Shown one piece after another: positions 15,226-41,072 of a stretch of DNA of 64,000 bases. The stretch is from an uncultured Sutterella sp. Lineage in GTDB: Bacteria; Pseudomonadota; Gammaproteobacteria; Burkholderiales; Burkholderiaceae_F. The translations under genes were made by a program, and so were the position numbers. The notes beneath the pieces are model-generated. The model was not told where the DNA came from. It was given only the letters and a program-made list of their open reading frames with translations, and did no database searches. Location: positions 17,625 through 81,624 of the forward strand of contig CALXXT010000061.1 of the NCBI GenBank assembly GCA_944392755.1, given 5' to 3'. Numbering within the stretch: position 1 is the first letter of the stretch; each line of letters begins with the position of its first letter.

Positions 15226-15624
15226 ATGCGGCCGGCCACCCGCGGCGAACTCTTCGCCGTTCTCGTTCTCGGCGTGCTCCTCTGTGCAAGCGCGGTTGCG
15301 CTCGTGGAGGTGCAGTACCGCACGCGGCTCCTCTTCGTCGAGCATGAGCACGAAGTGGACGTCACGCGCCGCCTGATGGACGACGAAGCCGAGCTCCTGA
15401 TGCAGGTGCGCCGCGCGTCGCTGCCCGGATCCATTTCCGCGCAGGCCGAAGCGCTCGGCATGCGCGGGGCGACGGGCGACGACACGATCACGCTCGTCGA
15501 GCGGGGCGCGGGCCGGATCGAGTATTCGAGCGACACGCAGCGCCGGATGGCCGCGGCCGAAGCCGAGGAGGCTCAAAGGGCGCAGAAGGAGAAGGCTCGT
15601 CCCGAGCGGGGAGGCCGCCGATGA
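15226..15624 (+). CDS. ftsL: Cell division protein FtsL
   Basis: FtsL is a bitopic divisome protein that works with FtsB and FtsQ to activate FtsWI. The 132-residue product has a short N-terminus, one membrane helix (FAVLVLGVLLCASAVALVEV, about residues 10-30) and a periplasmic coiled-coil region. The C-terminal tail is charged and Ala/Glu-rich. Sequence conservation in this family is low; the call rests on position between rsmH and ftsI and on topology. Its TGA overlaps the ftsI ATG in an ATGA junction. Confidence 0.93.
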   Translation: MRPATRGELFAVLVLGVLLCASAVALVEVQYRTRLLFVEHEHEVDVTRRLMDDEAELLMQVRRASLPGSISAQAEALGMRGATGDDTITLVERGAGRIEYSSDTQRRMAAAEAEEAQRAQKEKARPERGGRR

Positions 15625-17447
15625 CCGCGCGCGCGTTTTGGCGGCGAGTTTCCGGGAAGGCCATCGACCTTCTGAAGCGCGACCGCGCGGCCCGCAAGGC
15701 GCAGCCCGCCGACAGCGCGAGCCCCCTCATCGTCATTCCGATCCCGAAGTGGCGCACGTACGCCGCCTTCCTCGGGATTGTCCTTCTCTTCCTTCTTTTG
15801 GTCGCCCGCGCCTTCTGGCTGCAGGTCATCACGAGCGACTTTCTGCAGGGGCAGGGCGAAGCGCGCTTTGCGCGCACGCTCCCGATTGCGGGCGTGCGGG
15901 GGGAGATTCTCGACCGCAACGGGGTCGTTCTCGCCTCCTCGCAGCCGGTGAGAAGCATTTGGGCCGACCCTGAATTCACCAAAAAGGCGACGAAGGCCGA
16001 GCTCGCCGAACTTGCGGACGTGCTCGGCATGAAGCTTTCCGAGCTGTCGGAGCGCCTGCGCAAGAGCGCTTCGAAGAACTTCGTCTACCTCGCCCGCGGC
16101 GCGAGCGTCGCGACGGGCGAGGCCGTGCGCGCGCTCGGTCTTCCGGGCGTCGGCATCACGCCCGAAGTGCACCGCGAGTATCCGGACGGTCCCGTCATGG
16201 CGCACATCGTCGGCTTCACGGGACGCGACGGGCGCGGCCAGGAAGGGATGGAGCTCGCCCGCAACGAGGTGCTCTCGGGCATTCAGGGCGCGCGGCGCGT
16301 CATCCGCGACCGCATGGGGCGCATCGTCGACGACGTCTGGGCGAAGGAGGCCGTGCCGGGGCGCGACATCGAGCTTTCGATCGACTCGAGGGTGCAGTTC
16401 ATCGCCTACGACGCCCTGAACCGTCAGATCGAAAAGAGCGAGGCGGCGGCAGGCGCCGTCGTCGTCGCCGACGTGCGCACGGGCGAAATCCTCGCCCTCG
16501 TCAACTTTCCCACGTACGATCCGAACGACCGCTCGAGCATGCGCTTCGAGCGCATGAGGAACCGCGTCCTCACCGACCAGTTCGAGCCGGGTTCGACCAT
16601 GAAGCCCTTCGCCATCGCGAAGGCGCTCGACCTCGGCATCGTGACGCCCTTCACCACGATTCAAACGGCGCCGGGCAAGCTCACGATCGGCGACCGCACG
16701 ATCGGCGACACGCACGACTACGGGCTGCTTACGGTTGCCGAAATCGTTGCGAAGTCCTCCAACATCGGCACCGTGAAGATCGCGCTCGAGATGCCTCCGG
16801 AGACGCTCTGGGATCTCTACACCCAGCTCGGCTTCGGGCGCGCGCCGCAGATCGGCTTCCCGGGCGCAACCGCCGGCCGCCTGCGGCCCGCGCGCACGTG
16901 GCGCCCGATCGAGTAGGCGACGATTTCCTACGGACACGGCGTCTCGGTGAGCCTCATGCAGCTCGTGCGCGCCTATACGGCGCTCGCGCGCGACGGCGAC
17001 GTGATCGACCTGACGCTCTTCAAGCGCGCTCCGGGCGAGCTCCCGAAGGGCGAGCCCGTCTTCAAGCCCGAGACTGCGCGGAGCATGCGCGCCATGATGA
17101 TGAGCACGCTCGAGCGCGGCGGCACCGCCGCCCGCGTGCGCGTTGCGGGCTACACGGCCGCCGGCAAGACCGGCACGGCGAACAAGGTGAAGAACGGCCG
17201 CTACACGCGCGACACCGTGGCGAGCTTCGTCGGCATCGTTCCGGCGACGGCGCCGCGGTTCATCGTGGCGGTGATGGTCGATGAGCCGAAGAAGGGCAGC
17301 CGCTTCGGCAGCATGGTGGCCGCTCCCGTCTTCGCCGAAGTGTCGTCCGGTCTCCTGCGCACGCTCATGGTGACGCCCGACGAAGCGAACGCCTCGAAGT
17401 CGGCCCGTTCGGTGCTCGCGGAGGCGCGCCGTCGGTCGAAGAGCTGA
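15621..17447 (+). pseudogene. ftsI: Peptidoglycan transpeptidase FtsI (PBP3), interrupted by in-frame amber codon
   Basis: FtsI cross-links septal peptidoglycan and is normally essential. The full frame is 609 codons, a normal length: short cytoplasmic tail, membrane helix (about 48-68), dimerisation domain (GVRGEILDRNG near 91), then the transpeptidase domain. S325-TM-K328 and S379-S-N381 lie before a TAG at codon 432 (16914-16916); K516-T-G518 lies after it. The reading frame does not shift: WRPIE-stop-ATISYGHG matches the family segment where Gln normally sits, so a single CAG-to-TAG change explains it. The 431-residue product would lack KTG and should be inactive. TAG is an ordinary stop elsewhere in the window (dsbD, murG, an ABC permease), so recoding is unlikely. 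Sequencing error, tRNA suppression or a true nonsense allele remain possible. Confidence 0.93.
16914..16916 (+). other. In-frame amber codon within ftsI
   Basis: GAG TAG GCG ACG reads Glu-stop-Ala-Thr. The downstream 176 codons continue in the same frame and are clearly FtsI. There is no Shine-Dalgarno or plausible restart directly after it; the nearest in-frame start is a GTG at 16947. Confidence 0.95.
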
Positions 17448-20405: not shown

Positions 20406-21539
20406 ATGCTTCAGCAGTTATTCGGCGGGATGGCGGATCCCGCGTCCTCCATCGGGCTGCGCGCGCTGGCGGCCTTTCTCACGTCGCTTGCCATCGGGCT
20501 GGCCCTCGGGCCCCGCTTCATCGCGAGACTCAAGGCGATGCACTTCGGACAGGCGGTCCGCACGGACGGTCCGCAGACGCACCTGAAGAAGGACGGCACG
20601 CCCACGATGGGCGGAGCCTTGATTCTGGGCGCGCTCACGGCGTCGCTTGCGCTCTGGGGCGACTGGTCGAACCGCTTCCTTTGGGTGATTCTCTTCGTGA
20701 CGCTCGGCTACGGCGCGATCGGCTGGCAGGACGACTACCGCAAAGTCGTGCACCATGATCCGCACGGCATGAGCGCGCGGGAGAAGTTCTCCTGGCAGTC
20801 CGTCATCGGACTGGCCGCGGGGTTCTACCTCGCCGTGGCGCTCTCGGCCGGGCCGGGCGAAGGGTTTCTCGACGCGGCGGCGCATTGGTACGAAGCGGGC
20901 TTCCCGCTCGACATTTCACGCAGCATCGACCTCGTGTTCCCGGCGATCGGAAAGATGGCCTTCCCCTTCGGGATTCTCGGCTTCATCGTTTTCGTCTACG
21001 TCGTGATCGTGGGCTCGAGCAACGCCGTCAATCTGACGGACGGCCTCGACGGTCTCGCCACGCTTCCCGTCGTTCTCGTGGGTTCGGCTCTGGGGCTCTT
21101 CGCCTACGTGGCCGGGACGAGCGCTCCGGGCGCTCACTTCGCCTCGATTCCCGGGGCTGAAGAGGCGGCCGTCGTCATGGCGGCCGTGGCCGGGGCGGGA
21201 CTCGCCTTCCTTTGGTTCAACGCGCATCCGGCCCAGGTCTTCATGGGCGACGTCGGTGCGCTTGCCCTGGGCGGGTGCCTCGGGACGACCGCCGTCGTTG
21301 CGCGCGCCGAGCTCGTGCTTGCGGTGATGGGCGGCGTTTTCGTGATGGAAACGCTTTCGGTCATGATTCAGACGACGTACTTCCGCCTTTCGCACGGCAA
21401 GCGCGTCTTCCGCATGGCGCCCATCCATCATCACTTCGAATTGGGCGGCTGGAAGGAGACGCAGGTCGTCGTGCGTTTCTGGATCATCACCGTCGTTCTG
21501 GTCGCGGTCGGTTTGGGCGCGCTCGCAGCGGGCGCGTGA
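20406..21539 (+). CDS. mraY: Phospho-N-acetylmuramoyl-pentapeptide transferase
   Basis: MraY transfers phospho-MurNAc-pentapeptide to undecaprenyl phosphate, forming lipid I at the inner membrane. The 377-residue polytopic protein has the family signatures [18 protein letters not shown] (catalytic Asp pair), [22 protein letters not shown] and the C-terminal [15 protein letters not shown] motif. About ten hydrophobic helices are visible. It is embedded between murF and murD in the dcw order. Confidence 0.98.

Positions 21540-40995: not shown

Positions 40996-41072
<77 letters not shown>

Follow-up and report, generated by a model that had tools for sequence, protein, structure and literature searches.

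A single in-frame TAG codon in ftsI of an uncultured Sutterella sp., probably an isolated nonsense substitution in one assembly

The ftsI locus and its amber codon

The window, by which we mean the whole stretch of 64,000 nucleotides that was analysed, covers positions 17625-81624 of contig C61 (81,624 bases) from an uncultured Sutterella sp. The genome comprises 1,740,572 bases in 96 contigs, is 89.8% complete and 0.55% contaminated, and was probably assembled from a metagenome. At 1.74 Mb it is small beside the 2.2-3.2 Mb of its genus, a difference that is explained in part by incompleteness. The window contains the dcw cluster, in which ftsI, encoding the essential protein FtsI (PBP3), is located between ftsL and murE. 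The gene runs from an ATG at 15621 to a TGA at 17445-17447, and is interrupted by an in-frame TAG at codon 432, counting from this ATG. The following features were distinguished:

15621..16913, + strand: portion of ftsI upstream of the TAG, 431 aa, with the PBP dimer domain (PF03717, residues 89-237) and the transpeptidase domain (PF00905, residues 278-422)
16914..16916, + strand: in-frame TAG codon, read from the sequence; one TAG lies within the match to the sister FtsI
16917..17447, + strand: portion of ftsI downstream of the TAG, 176 aa and the TGA, containing KTG and undecayed (PF00905 profile positions 152-297)
16947..17447, + strand: 166-aa frame beginning at a GTG, the earliest potential re-start downstream of the TAG, entered solely for the split-protein explanation considered below

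A preliminary description of this DNA had placed the stop at these positions, with an FtsI frame continuing on both sides, the SxxK and SxN motifs upstream and KTG downstream, and all of this was confirmed. The 431 codons of the first piece include SxxK (STMK) and SxN (SSN), while the 176 codons of the second continue in the unchanged frame and include KTG; the motif names are those that we take to apply from the literature on penicillin-binding proteins. The PF00905 profile is matched from position 1 to 145 before the TAG and from 152 to 297 after it, both parts scoring far above the Pfam cut-off, and the TAG therefore cuts one transpeptidase domain in two. A membrane segment is discernible by eye near the start of the first piece. 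When searched separately against solved structures, each piece retrieved FtsI-type enzymes, with 5uy7 as the best match for both. The ftsI reading frame is unbroken except for this one TAG, and a stop-free antisense frame that rivals it scores lower (606 versus 944 bits). The dcw neighbours that were compared are free of stops; the FtsL piece falls just short of the PF04999 cut-off (22.5 versus 22.9 bits).

The codon and the gene in related genomes

The column occupied by the TAG encodes glutamine in 53 of 53 loci from relatives (45 CAG and 8 CAA; L005-L033 and L086-L109, with some genomes counted twice because they are present in two collections), as the preliminary description had expected of the family. 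The nearest named relatives of the first piece are S. massiliensis (75%), an unnamed Sutterella (74%), S. seckii (72%) and S. wadsworthensis (68%). Across the stop, the gene is 77% identical to the FtsI copy of sister genome G003, with an identity of 0.88 in the 25 columns before the stop and of 0.96 in the 25 columns after it; this high identity on both flanks shows that the TAG is no chance effect of open reading frame prediction. The proposed comparison with sister genomes found ftsI intact at this site in the sisters, and when a sister's intact FtsI was compared with whole genomes, an internal stop occurred in one of 12 genomes of the genus, the present one included.

At the family level 63 of the 67 genomes searched gave a match, and two of these matches contain a stop: those of the present genome and of G022, whose TAA is five codons short of the end of its contig (L192). 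The TAG described here is therefore the only mid-contig stop among the 63 matched genomes. The ftsI gene of G064 matches in two pieces, with unread bases where the frame changes (L193), and G022 and G064 together show that ftsI has suffered assembly damage elsewhere in the family. A TAA found in G041 was discarded as an ftsI stop, being just upstream of the likely start.

The piece following the stop is 70-79% identical to its counterparts in 11 sisters, and the piece preceding it 68-78%. For the piece following the stop, mean identity to nine other genomes is 0.75, within the range of 0.72-0.80 displayed by those others. In a 14-genome comparison of the dcw genes, each ftsI piece carries one change in otherwise invariant columns. 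All dcw genes compared carry 36 changes in 1195 such columns, at the high end of the 0 to 43 counted in other genomes. The mraY gene (window 20406-21539) accounts for 15 of the 36, above its share, a count to which alignment effects may contribute. The post-stop piece is not decayed, and ftsI is shown to be under normal constraint on both sides of the TAG; the stop is therefore unreal, very recent or somehow tolerated.

One form of tolerance would be the separate production of both pieces, the second from the re-start GTG at 16947, and their joining as a working split transpeptidase. The conservation of both pieces, and the 166-aa open frame with KTG that begins 30 bases past the stop, are consistent with such an enzyme. 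Against it, the cut passes through a single PF00905 domain, the membrane segment expected for the family would be present in the first piece only, the re-start drops ten residues and by eye has no clear ribosome-binding site, and none of the other genomes searched in the genus and family has a stop at this position. We consider a split enzyme extremely unlikely.

Rescue by a second enzyme, by recoding or by read-through

Neither piece, when searched separately against its own genome (89.8% complete), revealed a second ftsI, and the second PBP3 that the preliminary description had offered as an option was thus not found. The two candidates that emerged were rejected, a protein on contig C2 being PBP2 (704.5 bits versus a cut-off of 455) and a weak hit on contig C70, to the first piece only, being PBP1C (638.6 versus 494.2). 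If ftsI were truly dead, with division taken over by another enzyme, the small size of the assembly relative to its genus would fit; against this, PBP2 was the sole additional class B enzyme to be found, the dcw neighbours are free of stops and the downstream piece is undecayed, and replacement of FtsI is highly unlikely.

A mixed bin, with C2 as a foreign contig, was also considered and rejected: mean similarity to G003 was 61-74% per 20-kb stretch for genes on C2 (one such stretch had no matches), and 68% for those on C61. C2 thus displays no sign of foreign origin despite its lower G+C content. G+C climbs from 0.497 to 0.616 over the first 160 kb of this contig (C2:1-160000, L075 to L082), and all 19 sampled stretches of G003 fall within 0.60-0.66.

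The preliminary description had also called for a search for other in-frame TAGs in conserved genes. Reading frames of 80 codons or longer were taken from 1.2 Mb of G003 and aligned with 716,926 bases of the present genome; filtering on identity and codon-position pattern left 379 stretches, amounting to 349,386 bases or about one fifth of the genome. Within these aligned bases 47 stops had both flanks above 0.3 identity to G003, and among them only the TAG in ftsI combined an identity of at least 0.7 on either side with a frame that outscored its rivals; no other in-frame TAG was found in a strongly conserved gene. Both flanks also reached about 0.7 in three short stretches of 58, 83 and 44 residues. 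The first, on C2, overlaps the tmRNA gene, and the other two are outscored by stop-free frames (186 versus 78 bits and 256 versus 57 bits). Ten of the 47 stops had no stop-free rival frame; judged by eye, five of these fall in low-complexity alignments and two in the tmRNA stretch, another two closely precede likely starts, and the last is near the end of a gene. The remaining stops were assigned, partly by eye, to weaker frames, positions upstream of starts, gene ends or low-complexity sequence. There were also seven distinct frame-shift candidates, of which three proved to be neighbouring genes or upstream extensions and one was covered by a stronger unbroken frame; three further candidates lie near 41000 in the window, near 4400 in L079 and near 3500 in L076.

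That TAG ends other genes here, and is not freely reassigned, had been claimed from a few genes and was borne out: TAG terminates 26 of 265 conserved genes by a loose count and 21 of 224 well-aligned genes by a stricter one. One of these 21 (window 25396-24635) is antisense to murG. RF1 is complete (538 bits versus a cut-off of 423), with the PAT and GGQ motifs, which we take to be those of RF1; a second hit, which does not reach the cut-off, is presumably RF2. Unlike in a UAG-reassigned code, therefore, neither RF1 nor the use of TAG as a terminator has been lost. Pyrrolysine coding was rejected as well, the best PylS hit scoring 28.7 bits versus a cut-off of 178.15; hits to this profile also occurred in 13 of 14 control genomes, one of them above the cut-off.

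A tRNA with a CUA anticodon, the search for which had likewise been proposed, was absent from the 44 tRNA loci found in this 89.8% complete genome (anticodons were read by ARAGORN from 53 and 44 scanned sequences, which together cover all 44 loci). Since tRNA-Tyr and tRNA-Ile are missing as well, the tRNA list is incomplete. The TAG could thus be real and fixed, and be decoded in competition with RF1 by an amber-suppressor tRNA encoded on a phage, on a plasmid or in genomic sequence absent from the assembly; such a tRNA might have been missed, and the undecayed post-stop piece is consistent with its action. Gut phages do use suppressor tRNAs, for instance with UAG read as glutamine (PMC10879173). 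The 44 loci devoid of CUA, the absence of further internal TAGs from strongly conserved genes over 349 kb of alignment, the regular use of TAG as a terminator and the intact RF1 argue against suppression, which we regard as improbable. Equally improbable is the wider proposal of a Sutterella lineage in which an amber codon has become fixed in an essential division gene and which survives by regulated or leaky suppression, read-through setting its division capacity, while TAG serves as a terminator elsewhere.

Ordinary near-cognate read-through of a real TAG, for example by tRNA-Gln, might alternatively provide a little full-length FtsI, a protein required in few copies. Near-cognate read-through is held low by RF1, which is present in this genome. 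In E. coli lacking RF1, UAG is decoded by insertion of Gln, Tyr, Asp and Val (PMC6207430). The presence of two identical tRNA-Gln(CTG) genes in tandem could be taken to favour such read-through; they belong to a tandem duplicate of a tRNA-Leu(GAG)/tRNA-Gln(CTG) pair on contig C12 (L066:7503-7879). Similar tRNA-Gln repeats are present in the sisters and are therefore unlinked to the TAG: at least two copies at 94-100% identity occur in 9 of 11 sisters and one copy in G006 and G011, as counted by sequence identity alone. Extra copies being common in the genus, they were discarded as a clue, and we regard read-through as very unlikely. No positive evidence was obtained for suppression, for a split enzyme or for replacement of FtsI.

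Origin of the stop codon and comparison with known systems

We conclude, with a probability of roughly 85%, that the TAG is an isolated nonsense substitution confined to this assembly, either a consensus error or a rare or recent mutation in the sampled population. Among the options offered by the preliminary description, sequence error is the best one left standing, neither a second ftsI nor a CUA tRNA having been found. A consensus error of the draft genome is the most likely origin, and it is preferred to a genuine mutation in view of the essential role of FtsI and the failure to find any rescue; otherwise, the TAG may stem from a mutation that is rare or very recent and present in only some members of the sampled population. 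Living cells would be expected to make ordinary full-length FtsI from an intact copy, and sequencing reads or other strains should show a sense codon at this position.

In these genes a random single change creates a stop in about 3.1% of cases, so that no particular cause is required for one nonsense codon in a draft genome. Two observations count against an error. The stop is located in the middle of an 81.6-kb contig rather than at its edge. Furthermore, one nonsense codon in 294 matched stretches (101,225 codons) corresponds to about 1e-4 substitutions per base, an estimate that assumes all changes to be equally likely and has a Poisson 95% range of about 2.7e-6 to 5.9e-4. For a consensus built from short reads this point value is high, but a single event carries little weight. 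A literature search returned nothing on amber codons in ftsI or on stop errors in assemblies, and for Sutterella and the genetic code only matches that were off-topic by title. If real, the codon would mean, surprisingly, that a bacterium with a standard RF1 must read through an amber codon to make an essential protein. As a matter of caution, a lone nonsense codon in a draft genome, with no known suppressor, is to be treated as an error or a rare variant until the reads have been checked.

Three known systems can be set beside this locus. With UAG reassignment by suppressor tRNAs, as in gut phages, it shares an in-frame TAG where relatives have glutamine, but differs from it in that no CUA tRNA was found, the TAG is single, TAG is used as a terminator and RF1 is present. 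With FtsI/PBP3, the class B PBP of the divisome, it shares the domain order, the SxxK, SxN and KTG motifs and the place in the dcw cluster between ftsL and murE, and differs by one in-frame TAG that is absent from all 53 loci of the relatives. With the nonsense errors and mutations of draft assemblies it shares a single isolated change in an undecayed gene, a fragmented assembly and intact sisters, and differs in that an essential gene is hit in mid-contig.
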